Assembly (NCBI RefSeq): GCF_014196805.1
Contig: NZ_JACIEI010000004.1
Span: forward strand, 124,001-188,000
Direction of reading: 5' to 3'
DNA length: 64,000 nt
DNA from: Sulfitobacter undariae
GTDB lineage: Bacteria > Pseudomonadota > Alphaproteobacteria > Rhodobacterales > Rhodobacteraceae
The translations under genes and the position numbers were made by a program. How positions within the stretch are numbered: position 1 is the stretch's first letter; each line of letters starts with the position of its first letter. Shown piece by piece: positions 15,561 to 41,490 of this stretch. The notes under the pieces were generated by a model. That model searched no databases. It had not been told where the DNA came from and saw only the letters and a program-made list of their open reading frames with translations.

Positions 15561-16710
15561 AGACTGGCAGCAGGGCGGCTTTGGCATCTACATCCACTGG
15601 CCGTTCTGCGAAGCAAAATGCCCCTATTGCGATTTCAACAGCCACGTGTCGCGCAGCATTGATCAAGCAGCATGGAAAACGGCCTATTTATCCGAACTGA
15701 AACGCTATGCTGCGGAAACCCAAGGCCGGACTGTTACGTCCGTGTTCTTTGGCGGCGGCACCCCCAGCTTGATGAACCCAGATACAGTTGCCGCAGTTAT
15801 CGCCGAGATACGAACGCTTTGGCCCGTTGCAAATGATCTGGAAATTACCTTAGAAGCAAATCCCGGTTCAGTTGAAGCAGGTCGATTTGTTGCTTACCGT
15901 GATGGCGGTGTTTCGCGTATCTCAATGGGGATACAGGCGTTGAACGATGCGGATCTTAAACGGTTGGGGCGCATACATTCTACTGCCGAGGCTTTGGCCG
16001 CCTTTGACATTGCCCGCAACACATTTGAACGGGTTAGCTTTGATCTCATCTATGCCCGCCAAAACCAGTCTTTGCACGATTGGGAAACCGAGCTTAATCA
16101 GGCCCTATCCCTATCAATAGACCATCTTTCTCTTTATCAACTAACGATTGAAAACGGGACCGCATTTGGTGATCGCTATGCCATCGGCAAGCTGCGCGGC
16201 CTGCCCGATGAAGACCTTGGCGCAGATATGTTTGACCTGACGCAAGACGTTTGTGGCGCCTTTGGAATGCCCGCCTATGAGGTATCCAATCACGCCCGCG
16301 ACAGCGCCCAATCGCGGCATAATCTCATCTATTGGCGCTACGGTGATTATCTGGGCATTGGCCCCGGTGCGCATGGGCGTCTGACCCGTTCGGGACAACG
16401 CAATGCGACGATTTGCTATAGTAACCCAAAGCGTTGGTTAGATGAAGTTGCCCAAGGCAGCCCTGAGCAAAGCCGCGAAGCTTTGGAGCGCGGAGACGAA
16501 GCCACTGAATTTTTACTCATGGGGCTTCGGTTACGAGAAGGCATTGATGTAACGCGTTATGCAGCGCTTGCTGAAAAACCGTTGGACGCCGGCGTCTTGA
16601 CCCATTTGACGGAAATCGGAATGATCAAGGTCACGCCAACTAGGTTGGTCGTGACCGATCATGGTTTCCGAGTTTTAAACTCTGTAATCGCAGAACTGTT
16701 GAGCGCTTAA
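15523..16710 (+). CDS. hemW: Radical SAM heme chaperone HemW
   Basis: HemW is a HemN-like radical SAM protein that carries heme. The [4Fe-4S] motif CxxxCxxC is seen as CEAKCPYC (29-36), and FFGGGTPS provides the SAM-binding glycines. The ATG at 15523 overlaps rdgB by 38 bases. A TTG at 15553, leaving an 8-base overlap and starting [11 protein letters not shown], is an equally good start and I cannot decide between them. HemW is preferred over the oxidase HemN from the motif and length (395 residues), not from a full alignment. The 3' end overlaps convergent parB by four bases. Confidence 0.88.
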   Translation: MRSPNYWRNALIEDWQQGGFGIYIHWPFCEAKCPYCDFNSHVSRSIDQAAWKTAYLSELKRYAAETQGRTVTSVFFGGGTPSLMNPDTVAAVIAEIRTLWPVANDLEITLEANPGSVEAGRFVAYRDGGVSRISMGIQALNDADLKRLGRIHSTAEALAAFDIARNTFERVSFDLIYARQNQSLHDWETELNQALSLSIDHLSLYQLTIENGTAFGDRYAIGKLRGLPDEDLGADMFDLTQDVCGAFGMPAYEVSNHARDSAQSRHNLIYWRYGDYLGIGPGAHGRLTRSGQRNATICYSNPKRWLDEVAQGSPEQSREALERGDEATEFLLMGLRLREGIDVTRYAALAEKPLDAGVLTHLTEIGMIKVTPTRLVVTDHGFRVLNSVIAELLSA

Positions 16711-17600
16711 GACCCGCTCAACAGTCGACAAATCTCGTCCAGTTGATCCAAAGATTTGTATTGGATGCTTACCTGCCCGCTTTCCTGACCTGGCTTATGG
16801 TTAAGAGAAACGCGCATGCCAAGGTTTGCTGACAGGTCACCCTCCAAAGCCTTGGTATCTGCATCTTTTTCGTTTGATTCATCCATGCCTTTTGGTTTCG
16901 GCTTTGGATCTCCGGCAAGCTCGCGCTTGACCAGAGACTCAGTTGCACGAACAGACAAACCACCTTTGATTACCTGTTGTGCCAACTTCATCGGGTTTTC
17001 GGAGGGGATCAACGCACGCGCATGTCCTGCCGACAGTTGACCATCACGCAGCAATTCTTGCACGGCTGTCGGTAGATTTAGCAACCGCAACAAGTTCGCA
17101 ATGTGGCTACGGCTTTTCCCCAACGCTTCGGCCATCTTTTCTTGAGTATGACCAAACTTATCCATCAACTGCTTATAGCCAGCAGCCTCCTCAGCCGCAT
17201 TCAAATCAGCCCGCTGAATGTTCTCGATGATAGCAACTTCTAGGACTTCGATGTCCGTGAATTCACGCACGATAACTGGCAAAGCGTGAAGCTGCACCAT
17301 TTGGGCAGCACGCCAGCGGCGTTCACCGGCAACAATTTCATAAGTCCCATCGGCACGCGCGCGTACAATCAAAGGCTGCAGAACACCCTTTTCTTTGATG
17401 GAGGCGGCAAGATCATCCAGATCATCTTGAACAAACTGCTTACGCGGCTGATCGGGATTGGGTGAGATCCGTTCAATTGGAACAAGTTGATCGGCCGACG
17501 ATGGGCCTTTTGCCACAACGGTCTCGGCCTCATTAACGTCTGCCATCAGTGCAGACAATCCGCGGCCAAGCCCCCGCTTGCGCTCGTGATTATTGGACAT
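16707..17600 (-). CDS. parB: Chromosome partitioning protein ParB
   Basis: ParB is a CTP-dependent clamp that loads at parS and spreads, working with ParA to separate new origins. The 297-residue protein has the N-terminal Lys/Arg-rich ParA-activating tail (KRGLGRGLSALM), the CTP-binding segment GERRWRAAQ (92-100), a helix-turn-helix around ALGKSRSHIANLLRL and a C-terminal dimer domain. Its start overlaps the parA end by 11 bases. Two perfect parS sites lie 1.4 and 3.3 kb upstream of its start. Confidence 0.96.
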   Translation of the reverse strand: MSNNHERKRGLGRGLSALMADVNEAETVVAKGPSSADQLVPIERISPNPDQPRKQFVQDDLDDLAASIKEKGVLQPLIVRARADGTYEIVAGERRWRAAQMVQLHALPVIVREFTDIEVLEVAIIENIQRADLNAAEEAAGYKQLMDKFGHTQEKMAEALGKSRSHIANLLRLLNLPTAVQELLRDGQLSAGHARALIPSENPMKLAQQVIKGGLSVRATESLVKRELAGDPKPKPKGMDESNEKDADTKALEGDLSANLGMRVSLNHKPGQESGQVSIQYKSLDQLDEICRLLSGS

Positions 17601-18417
17601 GCTGCACCTCTTTTTCTACGGTTTGGTTGTTTTTCATTAATTCGGTTGCCAGATCACGGTATGCTTGGGCGCCTTTTGATTGGCTGTCATAAGCTAAAAC
17701 TGGCATCGCAAAACTCGGTGCCTCGCTAACCCTAACATTTCTTGGCACCATGGTTTTGAAAACCAAGTCGCCAAGATTATCACGCGCATCTTTTTCAACC
17801 TGTTGAGACAGATTATTCCTACGATCATACATCGTCAAAACAATGCCTTCGATACGCAGATCTTTGTTACCCGATTGCCGAACTTCACGAATAGTCAGCA
17901 TCAACTGCGACAATCCCTCCAGCGCAAAAAACTCACTCTGTAGTGGTACAAGGACCGAGTGAGCACCAATCATTGCGTTTACCGTCAACAAGTTGAGAGA
18001 AGGCGGGCAATCGATCAATATGTAGTCAAAATTGAACGAATCCATTTGCGTTTGACGCAATGCATCGTGCAACAGAAAGCTCCGCTTTTCGTTTGACAAT
18101 AATTCAAGATCGGCTGAGCTTAGATCAACAGTTGCTGGAACAATAAACAGATTTTCAGTTGGCGTTTTCAAAATCACATCATTGAGATCGATGTCTTCCA
18201 GCAGCAGTTCATAAGTAGTGAACTCTCGATCTTCGAGATCAATTCCCAATCCAGTGGACGCATTCCCCTGTGGATCAAGGTCAATCACAAGAACCCGTTG
18301 ACCTTTTTCCGCCAGAGCAGCGGCCAAGTTAATTGTCGTTGTAGTTTTCCCGACACCGCCCTTCTGATTGGCGATTGCGATAATTTTTGGACCGTCAGGG
18401 CGAGATAAATCAGACAC
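17590..18417 (-). CDS. parA: Chromosome partitioning ATPase ParA
   Basis: ParA binds DNA nonspecifically as an ATP dimer and pulls ParB-parS complexes apart. The 275-residue Walker-type ATPase has the deviant P-loop KGGVGKTT (19-26), VIDLDPQGN and ILIDCPPSL. The start codon is GTG at 18417, overlapping the rsmG stop by eight bases. It belongs to the leftward rsmG-parA-parB unit. Confidence 0.96.
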   Translation of the reverse strand: MSDLSRPDGPKIIAIANQKGGVGKTTTTINLAAALAEKGQRVLVIDLDPQGNASTGLGIDLEDREFTTYELLLEDIDLNDVILKTPTENLFIVPATVDLSSADLELLSNEKRSFLLHDALRQTQMDSFNFDYILIDCPPSLNLLTVNAMIGAHSVLVPLQSEFFALEGLSQLMLTIREVRQSGNKDLRIEGIVLTMYDRRNNLSQQVEKDARDNLGDLVFKTMVPRNVRVSEAPSFAMPVLAYDSQSKGAQAYRDLATELMKNNQTVEKEVQHVQ

Positions 18418-19018
18418 GCGTAAGTTCCCTTATTTTCAGGATTGTGGCGTCGGGGTTTGTTTCACTTGTTATTACTTCTATATCGTAGGACCATGTATTC
18501 ATGGCTTCTTCATGCTCTTTTTCCCAGTTTGCGCCCTTCGGAAATAGAGCGATTCCATCTTGAGCAAGGTGAATCTCTGCGTATCCTAACAGTGAGTTAA
18601 GGTCACCCAAGGCACGAGCAGAGAGAACTGGTGTGTTGAAACTTGGAATTTTATCAACGCGCTCAGCCAAGACCTTTACCTTTAGGTTAAGTTCGCGAGC
18701 AGCTGTTCGTAAAAACGCGCATTTCCGCTGATCGCTGTCAACGAGAGTGAACTGACGTTCTGGAGCAAGCTCGCGCGCCAATACTGCAACAACGATACCC
18801 GGAAATCCGCCGCCGCTCCCTATATCCAACCAATCCCCTACATTCGGTGCCAGCGCATATATCTGGGTAGAATCAACGATATGCCTATCCCAAAGCTGCG
18901 CCGCATCTCCACTTGAGATCAAATTTATTTTCTTAGTCCACTTTAGAACTAGGGATTCAAACTCATGGAGTCTTTCAATTGTTTCACGTGAAACATCTCC
19001 CAAATTGAAATTACTCAT
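18410..19018 (-). CDS. rsmG: 16S rRNA (guanine-N7) methyltransferase RsmG
   Basis: RsmG (GidB) methylates G527 of 16S rRNA. The 202-residue SAM-dependent enzyme has the motif WLDIGSGGGFPGI and VDSDQRKCAFL. Its N-terminal DVSRETI is encoded by a perfect parS site. The ATG overlaps the mnmG stop by one base (TAATG), and parA follows with an 8-base overlap. Confidence 0.95.
   Translation of the reverse strand: MSNFNLGDVSRETIERLHEFESLVLKWTKKINLISSGDAAQLWDRHIVDSTQIYALAPNVGDWLDIGSGGGFPGIVVAVLARELAPERQFTLVDSDQRKCAFLRTAARELNLKVKVLAERVDKIPSFNTPVLSARALGDLNSLLGYAEIHLAQDGIALFPKGANWEKEHEEAMNTWSYDIEVITSETNPDATILKIRELTRV
18980..18995. promoter_or_regulatory. parS: parS partition site inside rsmG
   Basis: The 16-base palindrome tgtttcacgtgaaaca is a perfect match to the ParB recognition consensus. 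It lies in codons 8-13 of rsmG and encodes part of VSRET. It sits about 5.2 kb from the probable origin and within the operon that also encodes ParA and ParB. Confidence 0.93.
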
Positions 19019-22209: not shown

Positions 22210-23481
22210 TTAGGTATTCATCGAATCGAAGAAGTCAGAATTTGTTTTCGTCTGCTTTAGCTTGGAAATCAAGAATTCAATCGCATCGGTGGTCCCCATC
22301 GGGTTCAGGATGCGACGCAGAACAAAGGTTTTCTGGAGATCGATTTTATCCACCAGCAAATCTTCTTTCCGTGTACCGGATTTAAGGATGTCGATAGCAG
22401 GGAACACACGCTTGTCAGCGATCTTGCGATCCAGAACAATTTCCGAGTTACCAGTACCTTTAAATTCTTCAAAGATCACTTCATCCATCCGGCTACCAGT
22501 ATCGATCAGCGCCGTTGCGATGATTGTCAGAGATCCACCTTCTTCGATGTTACGTGCCGCACCAAAGAAGCGCTTGGGGCGTTGCAATGCGTTCGCGTCA
22601 ACACCACCTGTCAGAACCTTACCAGAGGACGGTACAACTGTGTTGAATGCACGACCCAGACGGGTCACGGAATCGAGCAGGATCACAACATCACGCTTGT
22701 GCTCAACCAGACGTTTTGCCTTTTCAATGACCATTTCTGAAACGGCCACGTGGCGTGTCGCGGGTTCGTCAAAGGTAGAGGATACAACCTCGCCCTTAAC
22801 AGAACGCTGCATGTCTGTAACTTCCTCAGGACGTTCATCAATCAACAGCACGATCAAATAGCATTCTGGATGGTTTTTCTCGATGGAATTGGCAATATTT
22901 TGCAACAAAACCGTTTTACCGGTCCGTGGCGGCGCCACGATCAAGCAACGCTGGCCTTTACCGATAGGAGACACCAAATCAATGATCCGCGCCGAGCGGT
23001 CTTTGATTGTGGGATCTTGGACTTCCATGTTCAGACGTTCATCAGGGTAAAGCGGCGTCAAGTTTTCAAATGCAACTTTGTGACGCGCCTTTGCAGGGTC
23101 TTCAAAGTTAATCTGGGTCACTTCGGTCAATGCAAAGTAGCGCTCGGAATCGTCAGGAGCCTTGATCAAACCTTCAATCGTGTCGCCAGTGCGCAACGAA
23201 TGCAGGCGGATCATGTCAGGCGAAACGTAAATATCATCAGGACCAGCAAGATAGTTAGCCTCCGGAGAGCGCAGAAAACCGAACCCGTCTTGCATGACTT
23301 CCAGCACACCGTCACCGGAAATCTGCCAACCTTCATCCGCACGTTCGCGCAGAATTTGGAACATCATCTCGCCTTTGCGCATCGTTGAAGCGTTTTCGAT
23401 CTCCAGCTCTTCGGCCATGTCGATCAGGCTTTTGGGAGACTTCGCCTTAAGATCGGCAAGATTGAGTGATTCGAGTGTCAT
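22210..23481 (-). CDS. rho: Transcription termination factor Rho
   Basis: Rho is a hexameric RNA helicase that ends transcription. The 423-residue protein has the N-terminal RNA-binding cold-shock-like fold ([13 protein letters not shown]), the P-loop APPRTGKT (183-190), the Q/R-loop regions and [13 protein letters not shown]. The start at 23481 follows aaggata. It lies between hemJ and mnmE, pointing away from the origin. Confidence 0.97.
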
Positions 23482-23612
23482 GAAATATCCTTGGCCGCAC
23501 GCAAAAGCGTCTGCTGGCCAGTGTTTGAAAATAATACGGGTACTGCGATCCCCGAACGGGGTGCTGTGTGTTCTTTACGGGCTACCACAGGCCCTGTCAA
23601 TTCATCTGACGC

Positions 23613-24062
23613 CTAGAACTTTACCGTGACTGAAAACACAATAAATATCATTAGCAGCGTCGGCACTTCGTTCATCATGCGGTATTGGCTGCCCGTTACG
23701 GTATTTTCACCACGCTGGAATCCCTTCATCCTGCGCATCAGCCACAAGTGAAACACTGTCATTGCGATCACAGATGCGCCTTTGGTCCACGGCCATATGT
23801 CGCCCCAATAGACAATCCCCGGTGTTGCGACCAATAGCAAACCAAACACCCATGTTGCCATCATAGCTGGGCTCATAATCACCTTTGCCAATTTGAACTC
23901 CATCATGGCAAAGAGTTTGTGCGTATCCCCGCTGAGACCTACCTGCTCGGTGTGATGGACCATAAGCCGTGGGAGATAAAACAAGGCTGCCATCCATGAG
24001 ATGACCGAGATGATATGGAACCCTTTGATCCAAGGGTAAGCTGTTATCAGAAGATCAGTCAT
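23613..24062 (-). CDS. hemJ: Protoporphyrinogen oxidase HemJ, membrane protein
   Basis: HemJ converts protoporphyrinogen IX to protoporphyrin IX in bacteria lacking HemG and HemY-type oxidases. The 149-residue protein has about four membrane helices and the family motif KGFHIISVISWMAALFYLPR with a conserved histidine, then MVHHTE. The start at 24062 has gaggaaaa upstream. It is the last gene before the origin on the left side. Confidence 0.88.
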   Translation of the reverse strand: MTDLLITAYPWIKGFHIISVISWMAALFYLPRLMVHHTEQVGLSGDTHKLFAMMEFKLAKVIMSPAMMATWVFGLLLVATPGIVYWGDIWPWTKGASVIAMTVFHLWLMRRMKGFQRGENTVTGSQYRMMNEVPTLLMIFIVFSVTVKF

Positions 24063-24161
24063 GTTTTTTCCTCAGTGCCTGACCCTCTCTCTAATAATAA
24101 TAAAGATATAAAGTAAGATTGTAGTTTTAAGTAGGGAACGGAAATCCTGTGGATTAAATTG

Positions 24162-24170
24162 TTATCCACA
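24162..24170 (+). promoter_or_regulatory. DnaA box, perfect
   Basis: The sequence ttatccaca matches the strong DnaA-box consensus exactly. A reverse-oriented one-mismatch box (tgtggatta, 24148-24156) lies six bases to the left, making a back-to-back pair. Confidence 0.85.
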
Positions 24171-24460
24171 TTTTTAGAGGCCGTAAATACACGGGGAAAA
24201 GCCGATGTTGATAACCTATCAAATATTAACATAACTGTTATTTTACAGTTAGATACGTAAATATATTCTAATATTACCCTGTGGAAAACTCTGTGTATTT
24301 ATTAGGCATCTAAAAACTTACCAAGCGGTGAATTTATTCTTTTCCACGGTGGGGGAATCGTGGCTAAACTTGCTGAGAGATGCGGCTTATCCCCCTCTTG
24401 AACCTAGCGCGTGAATTGCGGACAAGTTGTAACCACGCCTTACCCTCATTTATGCAAGAG

Positions 24461-24469
24461 TTATCCACA
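24461..24469 (+). promoter_or_regulatory. DnaA box, perfect, touching the maf start codon
   Basis: A second exact ttatccaca forms the right edge of the origin; its last base is the A of the maf ATG. DnaA bound here would cover the maf translation start on the DNA and the likely transcription start region. Confidence 0.85.
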
Positions 24470-25068
24470 TGTCTGTCCCGATGATCCTCGCCTCTGGCTC
24501 TGCCATCCGCAGTCAGATGTTACGACAAGCTGCTGTGCCGCATGACGTTATCATCGCGCGTGTGGATGAAGAATCGATTAAAGCTTCACTTATCTCCGAC
24601 GGCGCCCCACCCCGCGATGTTGCCGATGCCTTGGCTGAACTAAAGGCCGCCAAGGTCAGCGATAAAAACCCTGGCCGCTTGGTTATGGGCTGTGATCAGG
24701 TGTTGGATCATGCGGGAAAGCTGTTGAACAAACCTGAATCGCCAGCGGATGCTTTGGCCCAGCTAAAGACGCTGCGGGGTGATCGTCATACGCTTTTGTC
24801 TGCTGCGGTGATCTATGAAGACGGTAAACCGCTGTGGCGGCATATTGGGCAGGTCCGGCTTAGGATGCGTGATGCCAGCGACAGCTATCTGCAAGACTAT
24901 GTAGATCGGAACTGGGACAGTATCCGCCATGCGGTTGGTGCATATAAATTAGAAGAAGAAGGCGTGCGCCTGTTCTCGCGTATTGATGGAGATTACTTTA
25001 CGGTTCTGGGTATGCCTTTGTTAGAGATATTGAACTACCTCACCCTACGCGGAGACCTTAACCAATGA
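24469..25068 (+). CDS. maf: Maf-family nucleoside triphosphate pyrophosphatase
   Basis: Maf-type enzymes hydrolyse dTTP, UTP or modified pyrimidine nucleotides; which one cannot be told here. The 199-residue protein has the N-terminal ILASGSAIRSQMLRQA and the acidic motif MGCDQVL. Its ATG is joined to a DnaA box, with no classic ribosome-binding site other than gcaagag. Its stop overlaps aroE by four bases. It begins the rightward maf-aroE-coaE-dnaQ operon. Confidence 0.9.
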   Translation: MSVPMILASGSAIRSQMLRQAAVPHDVIIARVDEESIKASLISDGAPPRDVADALAELKAAKVSDKNPGRLVMGCDQVLDHAGKLLNKPESPADALAQLKTLRGDRHTLLSAAVIYEDGKPLWRHIGQVRLRMRDASDSYLQDYVDRNWDSIRHAVGAYKLEEEGVRLFSRIDGDYFTVLGMPLLEILNYLTLRGDLNQ

Positions 25069-25901
25069 CCGAGTTACCCCGTATCCCTTTAGCTGGTGTG
25101 ATCGGATCGCCTATTGCCCATTCCAAATCCCCGCAACTGCATCGTCACTGGCTTGAGACATATGGCATCGCTGGCCACTATATCCCAATGGATGTGTCGG
25201 TTGATAATCTGGAAGAAGTGTTACGTACTTTGCCCAAGATGGGTTTTGTCGGGGTCAATTTGACCATCCCTCACAAAGAAAAGGTGATGGAATTTGCTGA
25301 TTTGATCACAGATCGTGCAACATTGATTGGGGCGGCGAATACGTTGATTTTCCGTAAAGATAGTAAAATTCACGCTGATAATACAGATGGTTACGGGTTT
25401 ATCGAAAATCTAAAAGCAGGTGCGCCCCATTGGGTGCCCTCCGCCGGACCTGCCGCTGTTTTAGGTGCCGGGGGCGCTGCACGGGCTGTGATTACTTCGC
25501 TGCTGGACGCGGGTGTCCCCGAAATTTTATTGTCCAATCGCACGCGAATTCGCGCAGAGCAGCTCCAAAAAGAGTTCGGTAACCGTATTCAGGTTTATGA
25601 CTGGGTGCAGGCCGGAAATATGATTGATGACGCAAGCCTGCTGGTCAACACAACCTCTCTCGGGATGATTGGCAAAGGTGAATTGCGTGTCCCTCTGGAT
25701 GGTTTGCGCTCGGAAACCATCGTGACTGATCTGGTTTATGCGCCATTAAAAACCAAAATGCTGGCCACAGCAGAGGAATACGGATGCACCACGGTTGATG
25801 GCCTTGGTATGTTGTTGCATCAGGCCGTTCCTGCCTTTGAACGCTGGTTTGGCCGCCGCCCCGAAGTAAACCGCGCCACACGTGCGGCGGCGTTGCGCTG
25901 A
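25065..25901 (+). CDS. aroE: Shikimate dehydrogenase
   Basis: AroE reduces 3-dehydroshikimate with NADPH in the aromatic amino acid pathway. The 278-residue protein shows the shikimate-binding SPIAHSKSP, catalytic K71 in NLTIPHKEK, D108 in DNTDGYGF and the NADP loop GAGGAARA (134-141). It overlaps maf by four bases and coaE by one base. Confidence 0.95.
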   Translation: MTELPRIPLAGVIGSPIAHSKSPQLHRHWLETYGIAGHYIPMDVSVDNLEEVLRTLPKMGFVGVNLTIPHKEKVMEFADLITDRATLIGAANTLIFRKDSKIHADNTDGYGFIENLKAGAPHWVPSAGPAAVLGAGGAARAVITSLLDAGVPEILLSNRTRIRAEQLQKEFGNRIQVYDWVQAGNMIDDASLLVNTTSLGMIGKGELRVPLDGLRSETIVTDLVYAPLKTKMLATAEEYGCTTVDGLGMLLHQAVPAFERWFGRRPEVNRATRAAALR

Positions 25902-26488
25902 TGTTTGTTCTTGGTCTCACAGGTTCCATTGGCATGGGGAAATCCACCACTGCCCAAATGTTTGTCGAATTAGGCTGCGCGCTGTGGGATGCGGACGCGG
26001 CTGTGCACCGGTTGTATGCGCAGGGTGGCGCTGCGGTTGCGCCTTTTGCTGCTGCCTTTCCTGATGCTATCGTTGACGGCGCTGTGTCGCGTCTCGCATT
26101 GAAAGACATCATTGGCCGCGATCCTGCGGCGTTGAAGCAGATAGAACAGATCGTACATCCGTTGGTAGGTGAGGACCGTGCCGATTTCCTTACCCAAACC
26201 ACTGCCGATATTGTGGTTCTGGATATTCCACTTTTGTTTGAAACAGGCGGCGATGCGCGTGTGGATGCGACGGCCTGCGTGTTCACCGATGACGCCACCC
26301 AAGAGGCGCGGGTGATGGCACGCGGAACAATGACGCGTGAGCAGTTTTTATCGATTAAAGCCAAGCAAATGCCAGCCGCTGAAAAATGCACCCGTGCGAC
26401 CTATGTGATCCAGACGGATACGCTTGAACACGCGCGCACGCAGGTGCAGAACGTGGTTGAAACCATACGGAGCCAGCTAAATGCGTGA
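25901..26488 (+). CDS. coaE: Dephospho-CoA kinase
   Basis: CoaE performs the last step of coenzyme A synthesis, phosphorylating dephospho-CoA. The 195-residue P-loop kinase has GLTGSIGMGKSTTA (5-18), WDADAAVH and the lid-region VLDIPLLFETG. The ATG shares one base with the aroE stop (TGATG), and the gene ends 8 bases inside dnaQ. Confidence 0.95.
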   Translation: MFVLGLTGSIGMGKSTTAQMFVELGCALWDADAAVHRLYAQGGAAVAPFAAAFPDAIVDGAVSRLALKDIIGRDPAALKQIEQIVHPLVGEDRADFLTQTTADIVVLDIPLLFETGGDARVDATACVFTDDATQEARVMARGTMTREQFLSIKAKQMPAAEKCTRATYVIQTDTLEHARTQVQNVVETIRSQLNA

Positions 26489-27167
26489 GATCGTTCTCGA
26501 TACTGAAACCACTGGCTTTGATCCCCAGTCAGGTGACCGCATTGTTGAGATCGGCGCAGTTGAACTCATGCGCCACGTGGCGACGGGAGTGACCTTCCAC
26601 GAATATATCAACCCGGAACGCGGTATGCCTGACGAGGCGTTTCAGGTGCATGGTCTGGGCGATGAATTTCTTCGTGATAAACCCAAGTTTGCTGCTGTAG
26701 GTCAGGCGTTTCTGGATTTCGTCGGCGATAGCAAAATGATCATTCATAATGCTGCTTTCGACATGAAATTTCTAAACTTTGAATTGGCCAAGATGGGCCT
26801 GCGCCAACTGCCGTGGGAACAGGCGGTTGATACGCTTGCCATCGCCCGCAAGAAATTTCCAGGTTCACCATCGTCGCTTGATGCGCTCTGCCGCCGCTTT
26901 GGGATTGATAACACATCCCGTACATTGCACGGCGCGTTATTGGACAGTGAAATTCTGGCTGAAGTCTATTTGGAACTGATTGGCGGCAAGCAGCCTGATT
27001 TTGGCTTGTCCACCCGCGCCGAGCCGAAAGAAGGCGAGACAAATACCGCTTGGGCACCGCGCCCGCGTGCGACGCCCCTGCCCTCGCGTGTATCGGAAAA
27101 AGAAAAAGCCGCCCATGCCGAGTTTGTCGGCAAATTGGGCGGCGATGTCTTGTGGCTTAAAGAGTAA
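26481..27167 (+). CDS. dnaQ: DNA polymerase III epsilon subunit (proofreading exonuclease)
   Basis: DnaQ is the 3'-to-5' proofreading subunit of the replicase. The 228-residue protein has the exonuclease motifs LDTETTG (6-12), a His-containing IHNAAFDMKFL and HGALLDSEILAEVYLELIGG. A charged C-terminal tail probably binds the polymerase alpha subunit. It ends the four-gene operon running away from the origin and converges on secB. Confidence 0.95.
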   Translation: MREIVLDTETTGFDPQSGDRIVEIGAVELMRHVATGVTFHEYINPERGMPDEAFQVHGLGDEFLRDKPKFAAVGQAFLDFVGDSKMIIHNAAFDMKFLNFELAKMGLRQLPWEQAVDTLAIARKKFPGSPSSLDALCRRFGIDNTSRTLHGALLDSEILAEVYLELIGGKQPDFGLSTRAEPKEGETNTAWAPRPRATPLPSRVSEKEKAAHAEFVGKLGGDVLWLKE

Positions 27168-38100: not shown

Positions 38101-38542
38101 ATTGAGGGCTTACTCCTGCTTCTAGCGGAAAACGCCTTAATAGAGACGCACAAAACGAGTGGATTGTCTGGATTTTCAGGCCACCGGGGGTTTCGATCGC
38201 TTGGGCAAACAGGGTGCGGGCATCGCGCAGTTGCGCGGCGGGTATGTCTTTTAGAACTCCCAGATCACGCAGGGCGGCACGCAGTTCGTCGTCTTCCATC
38301 ATCGCCCATTCGCCAAGGCGTTTGAACAGACGGTTCTGCATCTCAGAGGCGGCAGCTTTGGTGTAGGTCAGACAAAGGATGTGCTGTGGTTTGACCTCAT
38401 CCAACAGCAAACGTGCCACGCGGTCTGTCAAAACCCGGGTCTTGCCCGATCCCGCATTGGCGCTGAGCCAAGTTGACGTGTCAGGCCGTGCTGCCATGAT
38501 CTGGGCGCGGGTTGCATCGTTCCATTCGGGCAGGTCAGTCAT
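35156..38542 (-). CDS. addA: Double-strand break repair helicase-nuclease AddA
   Basis: AddA is the UvrD-like helicase and nuclease subunit of AddAB, which resects DNA ends for RecA. The 1128-residue protein has Walker A NAGSGKTR (29-36), helicase motif II LVDEAQDTSPRQW, VMTVHGAKGLE and the C-terminal nuclease motif with IDRLIITDDRILAVDFKTNR. Its start overlaps addB by four bases. Confidence 0.95.
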   Translation of the reverse strand: MTDLPEWNDATRAQIMAARPDTSTWLSANAGSGKTRVLTDRVARLLLDEVKPQHILCLTYTKAAASEMQNRLFKRLGEWAMMEDDELRAALRDLGVLKDIPAAQLRDARTLFAQAIETPGGLKIQTIHSFCASLLRRFPLEAGVSPQFKEIEDRAAELLRADILDTMAEGPQARLVTDLAAHYTGDNFGSLTQAITGKRELFDMLPDDLTALFDLPDGFDINDLPRDVMDQAVARWMPEAIGVFAAQNNKTMPKLADGLRAINFDAPIITDLDKLKALLLTQKMELRKSFPTKGAQTDLGPMLSPFEDLAQRALEAHDLQMRARNLSRTRALHRFSKVFITRYEAEKQKRGWLDFDDLILRARALLNDPKVAAWVLYRIDGGIDHILVDEAQDTSPRQWDVIEKLADEFASGAGAREEQTSRTLFVVGDKKQSIYSFQGADPREFDLKRVSFQESLTAAKLDFQNQSLDYSFRSSPAILRAVDQTFNTQPEPRMDEAMTHLAFKDALPGRVDLWPLIEKSTDDDEEADWTDPVDRKSDQHHTVILADQIAEQIKHLIEGEHYIPDEGKNRETIRRRITAGDFLILVRGRKTGLFSEIIRACKAAELPIAGADRLKVGAELAVRDIGALLSFLSTPDDALSLATALRSPLFGWDEQALFTLAHYRPLKQDLWQYLRTQEGKYPKTMAILHDLRSQVDFLRPYDLIERILTLHDGRRLLLARMGTEAEDGIDALLGQALAYERTEVPSLTGFLEWMQADDLEIKRQIDSASDQIRVMTVHGAKGLEAPIVIMPDTGTKKNEIRDEIITLDGVPIWKPNSGDMTQAIAAQIDTLKEAQTQEGLRLLYVAMTRAEKWLIVAAAGELPKDGGSWYQMTEAALHHLNAKPFNEGPVFGIRHEQEGWNDLPVVTVPPKETVVPVLEPVFTTNPPPAPERTEVLSPSDLGGAKALAGEDGMDEEAAMSYGSLVHMLLENLAALTTQQRNEAAEQLLRNTDPDQAAMALAEALGVLEHPALADLFTPNAMAEVPVTADLGRKRMYGIIDRLIITDDRILAVDFKTNRTVPDSPATCPEGLLRQMGAYTHALQAIYPDHKIDTAILWTRTGALMPLPHDTVTGALQRTGYLDAGNMPS

Positions 38543-41490
38543 GTCAAATCCTCAGGCTGTGCAGGATCGGAGGCATCCCATTCGCCAAACCGCGCCAGAT
38601 GGTCAAACTCGCCATCAAAGATTACTTTTTCCATCATCCGACGCGAGGTGAAGCCTTGTTCTGGGTCCAGATAGGCCGCGATGAGGGTGCGCAGATTTTC
38701 CAGAACCACGGCTGGCGGCTCTTCCTCTAGCGGTGCGTCACGCTCAACAGGGGGATTACCAAGGCCGATAAATGTTGCACGTGAAACAACTGCGGTACCG
38801 ACTTTTTTGAACGCGCCTTCTTCAACCATGGCGGCTTCGATCAACAGTTGCTTATCAAAGTGCTTTTGTTGTTTGTCGGTGGGCGGATTTCCGGTTTTAT
38901 AGTCGTAAATCTGGATGTCGCCTGCGGCGTTTCGGTCAATCCGGTCGGCGACACCGCGCAAGGTAAAGCCGAGTTCGGGCAATTCCAGCGTACCACGGGC
39001 GTCTTTTTCAAAGGCGACAGGCACGGCAGTGGCCAGGCGGGTTTCCTCAGCCTCAATAAACCAATCGGCAATCCGCGCTAGACGCGCCAACCAGATCGTG
39101 CGAGCGGCGGGCCATGGGACCAGTTCGGTCAGGGTATCATGAGCGATGTTGAGCAGATGGGCGCGGTTGAGGTTGGCGGGGTCCACTATGACGGATTTCA
39201 CAAAATCCTCCATCACCGCATGCACAACAATCCCGCGCAACGGCGCATCGGGGGATTGCACCAGCGGATATAGCGCCCGCAATCGCAGGCTGTGGCGGGC
39301 ATAGATCGCATAAGGATCGCGGATTAATGTCTTGATTTCGGTCACAGACAGGCTGCGCGGACGTGCTGCCAAAGGCGGGCGCGGCGAGGGGCGCGGAGCG
39401 GACTCTACACGTGCCACAGCTTCCAATGCGCGGGCCTGACCCAGCCAATGATCGCCTCGGGCAATCATGGCATTCCACGCCTCAACGCCGCCTTGCTTTG
39501 GCAGGCCGCCCATCAAATTGCCCAAACGGTTCACCCAACGCGAGGGCACGGTTTCGGCATCTTCTGACCGGATGGAACGGGTGATCCAGACTTCAGGCGC
39601 ACAGACCGCTTGCTGATAATCATGTGCAGCCAGCCCCACACGTCGTTCAGGCAGCAGCAACCCTGCGTCATTGCGCATTTTGCGGTTCAGCCACGGATCA
39701 GGCGGGGGGGCTTCGGGCCAAGTACCGTCGTTCAACGCGCCAAGGATCACCAGATCAGCGCCTTGCACACGGGCCTCCAGCGTACCCCAGATCATAATAC
39801 CAGCGTGGGGCGCATCGCGGTCACGTACCTCACCGGCTGACAGCAAGGCACCCACCAGATCACCGTAATCAGCGGCAGTCAGGTCGGTGCCATAGCTGGC
39901 TTCATCTTCCAGCTCTTGCATGACGCGGCGCGCTTCTGCCCCCGCTTTGTGCTGCCACAATTCATGCGCATGGTTGGCGGAGGGGCCAGCAGCCAAAGCT
40001 TCGGCCAGTTCCAGATGCAGGTTTACCCAATGGGTGAGGGGGCGGGTTTCGTGGTCCAGATGGCCCATCATGCTATCCGCCACCCATGCGGCCCAAACCT
40101 TCATGGCTTCATCCTCTGGCACGGCTTTTTCGCATAGCTCGCGAAACGCGTCAGGCTCGGGGTATGGCAGGCCGTGCCGCCGTATTGCCAATTCACAACG
40201 TTGCGTGTGCAAGCGGTGCAAATTGCGCCCGTCGGCGCTATGGCTCAGCGGGTGTTTCAGTAACGTCAGCAGAGCTTCGGCATCCAGTTTGCGTGACATC
40301 AGCGCCGCGACATGCCGTAAAAAACGCCCCGGAGGGGACAAGTGCAGAGGCGTTCCTGCGCTGTCGTCGGGCAGGATATCCCAACGGCTGAGCGCCGCCG
40401 TCACCCGCCGCCCTAACATACGGTCAGGCGTGATCAGCGCTGCGGTTTGCCCGTCTTCGGCGGCTTGTCGCAGGCGCAGGGCAATTGCCAATGCTTCGGC
40501 GCGGGGCGTTTCAGCCAGTAGCAAGGTCATATCCTTGGTGGCATCAACCAAGTGATCCAGCTGCGGTCCCTCGATCCGCCACGCATCAGTGACAGGGGCA
40601 GGGCGCAAGGACAGCGAGACAAGTTTATTGCGTGCAGGCGAAGGCGGCACTGCGGGTTCATGCCAGTTTTCAACAGCGTTGGCTGTGCTGTCCAACCCTT
40701 GCATCAGGCGGTAAAACCGGAATTGTGGATGATCTTCGGAAATGAGTGGATCATCCAAAGCAGCCCAGACTTCGGGCGGTAGATCAAAGTCAAATCCGGG
40801 TAGAACCAGTGCCCCTTGGGGTAGTTTAGAGACTGCCTGCATGAGCATCATCATCGTACCGCGTGATCCTGTTGACCCCGCAATAATGACCGGATGCTGC
40901 GGCGGCTGTTCGGCCCAGAGCGCGGCAATGCCGCTGACACGTGCCCTTTGTCGGGCTTCTTTGTCGGGCATCGCTTCGGTCAGTGTTAGGTAATTCTGGA
41001 CGATCCCCAAAAACACTTTGGCGCGTTCCCAATGGCCTGATTGATCCGTCACATCCAGATCAGCGATGTCATCGGGGGTGACCCCTTCGCCCTGCATTTC
41101 GTCAATCAAACCTGCAAGGCTATCGGCCAGATCATAGAGAGAGGCCCGTGAGGCAAGATCAGGTGATTGCTCTAATAAAGCAGAAATCAGGCCGATCAAC
41201 TCAAGCCTTCGGCGTAGGGCGGGCACGCCTTCGGGGATGATCACGCTGGGCGCAAGGGTTTCCAGATCGCTGATCAGGCGGATACGCGGTAGCAGTCGCG
41301 CTGGCCCTTGCGCAAAAATCGTACGTAGGCGGCGGGCCATACGAGTGGTGTTTACGATCAGTTCAACACGGGCCAATGCTTCGGGCGGTTGCCCTTCAAA
41401 ACGGTGCAGCAGGCCATCAACCAAAGCTTGTGGAAAATCGACGCCCGAGGGCAGGCCGAAAACGCGGGGTGTGTCTTGGGGTTCAAACAT
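38539..41490 (-). CDS. addB: Double-strand break repair protein AddB
   Basis: AddB is the inactivated-helicase and nuclease partner of AddA. The 983-residue protein has the alphaproteobacterial AddB layout with a C-terminal PD-(D/E)xK nuclease: GVADRIDRNAAGDIQIYDYKTG. No classic Walker A motif is seen at the N-terminus, which is common in alphaproteobacterial AddB. A parS-like site lies in codons for VVSRATF near the C-terminus. It overlaps the nucleotidyltransferase gene by eight bases. Confidence 0.92.
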   Translation of the reverse strand: MFEPQDTPRVFGLPSGVDFPQALVDGLLHRFEGQPPEALARVELIVNTTRMARRLRTIFAQGPARLLPRIRLISDLETLAPSVIIPEGVPALRRRLELIGLISALLEQSPDLASRASLYDLADSLAGLIDEMQGEGVTPDDIADLDVTDQSGHWERAKVFLGIVQNYLTLTEAMPDKEARQRARVSGIAALWAEQPPQHPVIIAGSTGSRGTMMMLMQAVSKLPQGALVLPGFDFDLPPEVWAALDDPLISEDHPQFRFYRLMQGLDSTANAVENWHEPAVPPSPARNKLVSLSLRPAPVTDAWRIEGPQLDHLVDATKDMTLLLAETPRAEALAIALRLRQAAEDGQTAALITPDRMLGRRVTAALSRWDILPDDSAGTPLHLSPPGRFLRHVAALMSRKLDAEALLTLLKHPLSHSADGRNLHRLHTQRCELAIRRHGLPYPEPDAFRELCEKAVPEDEAMKVWAAWVADSMMGHLDHETRPLTHWVNLHLELAEALAAGPSANHAHELWQHKAGAEARRVMQELEDEASYGTDLTAADYGDLVGALLSAGEVRDRDAPHAGIMIWGTLEARVQGADLVILGALNDGTWPEAPPPDPWLNRKMRNDAGLLLPERRVGLAAHDYQQAVCAPEVWITRSIRSEDAETVPSRWVNRLGNLMGGLPKQGGVEAWNAMIARGDHWLGQARALEAVARVESAPRPSPRPPLAARPRSLSVTEIKTLIRDPYAIYARHSLRLRALYPLVQSPDAPLRGIVVHAVMEDFVKSVIVDPANLNRAHLLNIAHDTLTELVPWPAARTIWLARLARIADWFIEAEETRLATAVPVAFEKDARGTLELPELGFTLRGVADRIDRNAAGDIQIYDYKTGNPPTDKQQKHFDKQLLIEAAMVEEGAFKKVGTAVVSRATFIGLGNPPVERDAPLEEEPPAVVLENLRTLIAAYLDPEQGFTSRRMMEKVIFDGEFDHLARFGEWDASDPAQPEDLT
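38773..38788. promoter_or_regulatory. parS: Probable third parS site, inside addB
   Basis: The sequence tgttgcacgtgaaaca differs from the perfect palindrome only at position 5, a position that tolerates any base in the described consensus TGTTNCACGTGAAACA. It lies about 14 kb to the right of the probable origin, on the other arm from the two perfect sites. Confidence 0.6.

Follow-up and report, generated by a model that had tools for sequence, protein, structure and literature searches.

A probable chromosomal replication origin in the hemJ–maf gap of a Sulfitobacter-like Rhodobacteraceae genome

Where does chromosome replication begin in a Rhodobacteraceae draft genome in which neither dnaA nor hemE adjoins an obvious origin? 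An initial annotation of a 64,000-nucleotide stretch (the window; positions 124001–188000 of contig C4 in a draft assembly of 3.85 Mb in 44 contigs) placed the origin, oriC, in the gap between hemJ and maf. This is also the reading that our analysis best supports, as a cluster of DnaA boxes, the skew minimum of the contig and the parS sites all coincide there, and we consider it very likely (probability about 0.95) that the gap is the chromosomal oriC. What was seen directly is how the gap is built and conserved, where skew on the contig is lowest and where parS lies. The locus is laid out as follows, in coordinates of the window.

24063–24469, no strand: predicted oriC interval between hemJ and maf, 407 bp, its last base being the A of the maf ATG
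23613–24062, minus strand: hemJ (UPF0093; PF03653, 9.2e-54)
22210–23481, minus strand: rho (Pfam Rho_N and Rho_RNA_bind)
24469–25068, plus strand: maf, Maf-like protein (PF02545, 6.7e-41)
25065–27167, plus strand: aroE, coaE and a DnaQ-like exonuclease gene (Pfam), in an order conserved in relatives
16707–18417, minus strand: parB and parA (Pfam)
18980–18995, no strand: perfect parS, from a motif search of the genome
20873–20888, no strand: perfect parS, from the same search

Genes thus diverge from the gap on both sides, hemJ on the minus and maf on the plus strand, each confirmed by Pfam. The claim that maf, rather than dnaA or hemE, sits at the origin edge was also correct: dnaA lies 79 kb from the gap (C4:227607), and hemE, the sole PF01208 match of the genome, is on contig C9. 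Within and beside the gap, the following elements were identified.

24092–24130, no strand: A-rich tract, the predicted duplex-unwinding element, A-rich in the alignment of 80 sequences and in the logo anchored on 78 of them
24131–24136, plus strand: conserved GTAGGG, its GTAG lying 13 nt from the box at 24148
24148–24156, minus strand: one-mismatch DnaA box TAATCCACA, the best conserved internal box, R1-like, with the plus strand reading TGTGGATTA
24162–24170, plus strand: exact DnaA box TTATCCACA, conserved weakly, as TT.tcC, in the gap alignment
24206–24214, minus strand: one-mismatch DnaA box TTATCAACA, poorly conserved
24217–24229, plus strand: IHF-like site, a weak match without a chance control, one mismatch from WATCAANNNNTTR, which we take to be the IHF consensus
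24280–24288, minus strand: one-mismatch DnaA box TTTTCCACA, moderately conserved
24461–24469, plus strand: exact DnaA box TTATCCACA, the R4-like right end, its last A common to the maf start codon

The interval (GC 37.8%) therefore holds five boxes with at most one mismatch, and the two exact boxes (24162 and 24461) and at least three one-mismatch boxes (24148, 24206 and 24280) that had been announced for it are all present. In 10,000 first-order simulations with matched composition, the mean was 0.13 boxes; none contained five or more, and none contained two exact ones. The window as a whole contains 16 boxes with one mismatch or none, versus 9.73 ± 2.96 in shuffles, the surplus falling in 24063–24469; a further one-mismatch box lies at 24561, inside maf. 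Among 407-bp windows of C4 clear of the gap, none exceeds two boxes at this threshold, so that the cluster is both well above chance and unique on the contig. The draft genome as a whole has 33 exact boxes, versus 14 matches for a reversed control pattern, and the boxes at 24162 and 24461 are the sole pair among these 33 that lie within 500 bp of each other. Counting against an oriC, three of the 80 gaps compared (L078, L099 and L102) have no box with up to one mismatch; the canonical box is therefore not kept everywhere.

Alignment of the gaps points to the A-rich tract together with GTAGG-N12-TGTGGATTA (24092–24156), and to the box on the maf start, as the best conserved parts. In the alignment of 80 gaps and in a logo anchored on the left box (78 of the 80 gaps, the two that lack the anchor box being left out), the conserved core reads: A-rich tract, GTAGG, some 12 poorly conserved bases and then CTGTGGATTA. 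The best match to TGTGGATTA within gap positions 41–115 was exact in 53 of 80 gaps and had at most two mismatches in 78, while the spacing from GTAG to TGTGGAT was 13 in 50 of the 54 gaps in which the pattern was found. When 100 genomes of the family were searched with GTAG-N12-15-TGTGGATTA, 14 (this one included) contained it, once in each, and every one of these 14 matches lay in this gap, which is bounded by maf and hemJ in nine genomes and by maf and rho in five; the reversed control gave four matches in the 100 genomes, one of them in this genome. The exact motif was not found in the other 86 genomes, which counts against the oriC reading. The motif is therefore specific, and far from universal in its exact form.

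How might such an origin work? From these elements we infer that DnaA binds and that replication fires here. DnaA would load on boxes between the left box at 24148 and the oppositely oriented right box at 24461, and would extend leftward over GTAGG, whereupon the A-rich tract at 24092–24130, beside hemJ, would melt. Two forks would depart in opposite directions; transcription of both hemJ-rho-mnmEG-rsmG-parAB and maf-aroE-coaE-dnaQ points away from the origin. ParAB, acting on the two parS sites 3–6 kb to the left, would serve to segregate the newly copied origins. We take the box at 24148 (TGTGGATTA on the plus strand) to be the counterpart of R1 of Escherichia coli and that at 24461 (TTATCCACA) the counterpart of R4; presumably, the two origins share an R1-orientation box beside an A-rich tract, a 13-nt spacer to a 3'-GAT and an opposed right-end box.

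Of the steps in this scheme, melting is the one whose place is least certain. In the basal unwinding system (BUS), a box is followed by a spacer of up to 16 and at least three NAN trios (PMC8287927). A DnaA-trio arrangement at 24148 was suggested by eye, and unlike the published minimum of three (PMC8287927), just two A-centred triplets (3'-GAT GAA) follow the spacer there, again by eye. A scan of the window returned no BUS pattern at this best conserved box, which counts against melting beside it, and returned the pattern formally at 24066, next to a two-mismatch box, and at 24280. Among the 80 gaps, 67 have a BUS pattern versus a mean of 23.5 (maximum 33) in 60 rounds of mononucleotide shuffling, a comparison in which the sites scatter and the shuffle also destroys boxes; with a looser spacer of up to 25 the count, given without a control, was 63 of 80.

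These positions invite a different account of the same origin, in which the gap is oriC and opens elsewhere, for example at the AT peak of 24205–24304 or at the tract by the two-mismatch box at 24066. The 100-bp AT peak of the contig indeed starts at 24205, and the formal BUS patterns lie at 24066 and 24280 rather than at 24148. Both the AT peak and the 24066 box are poorly conserved, however, whereas most of the 80 gaps have an A-rich tract on the left of the 24148 box. We therefore regard melting at another place in the gap as rather unlikely, and melting at the hemJ-side A-rich tract, as predicted from the conserved core, as probable.

The AT-rich core that had been described for the gap stood at short scales. 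For windows of 100 and 200 bp, the AT maximum of C4 falls inside the gap; for windows of 400 bp it does not, AT content being higher at C4:6941 than in the gap (0.655 vs 0.625).

The ParAB system lies close by, as the initial annotation had said. No perfect parS sites other than those at 18980 and 20873 occur in the genome, and both are 3–6 kb from the gap; proximity of parAB to ori has been described as the rule, with exceptions (PMC8116508). A third parS-like site with one mismatch (38773–38788) lies across the origin from these two, within a long minus-strand open reading frame (38539–41490).

The check proposed with the original claim, a GC-skew minimum at this position, was run on contig C4 alone (238,837 bp). 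The cumulative minimum fell at window 24613, 144 bp to the right of the interval, and the keto curve agreed, with its minimum at 24671. Two features of these curves count against the oriC reading: the skew curve stays almost level over some 30 kb to the right of its minimum before it rises, and the purine curve reaches its lowest point 3.4 kb further on.

Skew was also followed in relatives. In G058, a single-contig genome of the same genus sampled in 20 stretches of 10 kb, skew was positive in seven of nine stretches between 125 kb and 2.1 Mb (two being slightly negative) and negative in all eight between 2.4 and 4.13 Mb (the last nearly zero), with values near zero at 15, 100 and 115 kb (−0.006, 0.031 and −0.004). 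Its local minimum between 115 and 135 kb, at 123,314, falls within hemJ, some 100 bp from the gap, in agreement with an oriC. Two other single-contig relatives count against it. The sampled skew of G075 changed sign near 220 kb, and its hemJ is located at 292 kb. CP023454 (G188) has the gap at about 50 kb; its skew was negative between 39 and 80 kb, a range that takes in both flanks of the gap, then close to zero at 150 kb and positive at 300 kb. The switch thus lies tens of kb or more from the gap in two of the three sampled single-contig relatives, a displacement that is perhaps due to local rearrangement. Among the 71 of 80 relative loci kept for a local count (those shorter than 19 kb or without maf were left out), skew on the hemJ side was lower than on the maf side in 67, and was negative on the left and positive on the right in 44. 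The minimum over 20 kb fell within 2 kb of the gap in 44 loci and further away in 27, the latter counting against the oriC reading.

That the gap is a mere divergent promoter region for hemJ and maf, its boxes due to chance or regulation and the true origin elsewhere, for instance beside dnaA, is very improbable: both promoters probably do lie in the gap, skew is displaced from it in two sampled relatives and the minimum on its own contig is flat to the right, but skew minimum, parS and a contig-unique box cluster coincide at the gap, and no box cluster is found near dnaA. A promoter scan of the gap favours neither side, because its two sites versus 1.4 ± 1.1 expected are at chance level. An origin beside dnaA was rejected, since C4 226000–231000 has just three scattered one-mismatch boxes and no cluster. 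Besides dnaA itself, the genome (G000) has a second, short Bac_DnaA-domain match at C19:15582–15803 (L002; E 1.5e-6), in an open frame of 171 aa. A search of 23400–25200 for structured RNA gave no Rfam match up to E = 1.

With the gap as the likely oriC, its gene order was compared among relatives. Among the best 80 of 206 relatives found by a HemJ scan, whose records are mostly Sulfitobacter, Roseobacter, Tateyamaria, Roseovarius and Ruegeria, all 79 loci that reach maf have maf, gap and hemJ in the same diverging arrangement, followed by rho; the remaining locus, L100, ends before maf and was left out of the maf counts, leaving 79 testable named loci. Further on, parA and parB follow wherever the locus is long enough, and the gap measures 371–452 bp (median 407, the window included). 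One record, L068 (JAAUPT010000331.1), is a 3.5-kb contig filed under a Nitrospira MAG; as it carries the Rhodobacteraceae-type order maf-gap-hemJ-rho and a HemJ 64% identical to that of the window, it is probably a misbinned contig.

A wider sample at the level of the order comprised 41 genomes, this one included, all with a PF03653 match. In 29 of the 30 loci read (28 of 29 without our own), maf faces hemJ. The exception, L156 of G062, counts against the oriC reading: aroE faces hemJ there, and the genome has a weak Maf match only, located elsewhere. Nine of the 41 genomes have only a weak HemJ match (L258–L266), and in all nine maf faces rho directly.

At the level of the class, HemJ was present in 41 of the 58 genomes sampled, and gene order was read from 30 loci, each about 3.4 kb long. 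In the single locus from the same family, maf adjoins hemJ; outside the family, hemE takes this place beside hemJ in 23 of 29 loci and maf in none. The Caulobacter crescentus origin, Cori, lies between hemE and COG1806 (PMC1914354), and Sphingomonadaceae origins have been placed on the hemE side (PMC4741004). Unlike these, the present gap is flanked by neither hemE nor COG1806, and a search of the genome with the corresponding family, PF03618 (DUF299), gave no match, while the control gave matches in Caulobacter vibrioides. Probably, hemE and the COG1806 gene were lost or removed in this family, which brought maf to the origin edge; we infer this direction of change because the hemE/COG1806 arrangement of the Cori and Rickettsia origins is regarded as ancestral (PMC1914354). 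In other respects the two origins are alike: Cori is also about 400 bp long (404 bp, here 407), has DnaA boxes and is AT-richer than its genome (PMC1914354). Control by CtrA of the Cori type was rejected, as no TTAA-N7-TTAA within one mismatch is present in 24001–24520. On C4, GANTC occurs 298 times in 238,837 bp, about one third of the expectation from base composition by rough arithmetic.

Within the family, oriCs have been predicted in 101 strains by Ori-Finder (PMC6699656). The gap resembles these in its DnaA boxes, local GC minimum, skew minimum and proximity to parAB, all as seen on its own contig; in the main text of that study, supplements aside, the flanking genes are unnamed and the words 'maf' and 'hemJ' occur 0 times (PMC6699656). 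An explicit statement that maf forms the origin edge in Rhodobacteraceae was not found in the openly licensed literature, supplements aside. The maf edge is nevertheless not new, because it is usual in the family and maf is already among the Ori-Finder indicator genes (PMC3794950). The gene order that had been singled out for this genome is thus real, but it is the usual family arrangement rather than a peculiarity. The position of the origin being usual for Rhodobacteraceae, the less ordinary detail is the putative DnaA box on the maf start codon.

To look for this box in relatives, the maf start was taken as the best in-frame start codon no more than 30 bases from its expected position. A box with at most one mismatch overlies the start in 56 of the 79 named loci (25 of them exact), in 19 of 28 loci of the order sample, in two of the nine loci without hemJ and in eight of 13 loci found by the core motif. 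The sets share genomes (our own copies, L160 and L217, were left out; G058 appears twice, as L163 and L216; L156 has no maf), and because the loci are related, these counts are not independent events. In the named set, the same test found a box on none of 388 starts of hemJ, rho, aroE, coaE and dnaQ (80, 77, 78, 77 and 76, respectively). Four loci (L081, L085, L101 and L104) keep a one-mismatch box three bases further upstream of the maf start. By eye, many loci have an AGG- or AGAG-like stretch ahead of the box, which fits an order of Shine-Dalgarno sequence, box and ATG.

In the simplest view, oriC touches maf with its right end. Maf is a nucleotide pyrophosphatase linked to septum inhibition. 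It is conceivable, if doubtful, that in most sampled Rhodobacteraceae the right-end box has merged into the maf translation start (Shine-Dalgarno-like stretch, TTATCCAC, ATG), such that the orisome would cover the start of maf. DnaA occupancy would then determine maf expression once in each cell cycle and couple origin firing to Maf.

Taken together, these results provide a well-supported oriC for a Sulfitobacter-like draft genome, and a core motif that is single-copy where it is found. They also yield a rule for locating oriC in draft Rhodobacteraceae genomes whose skew is misleading by itself: maf faces hemJ, or rho if hemJ has been lost, across about 370–600 bp. The DnaA box at the start codon of maf adds a small hint that initiation and Maf may be coupled.
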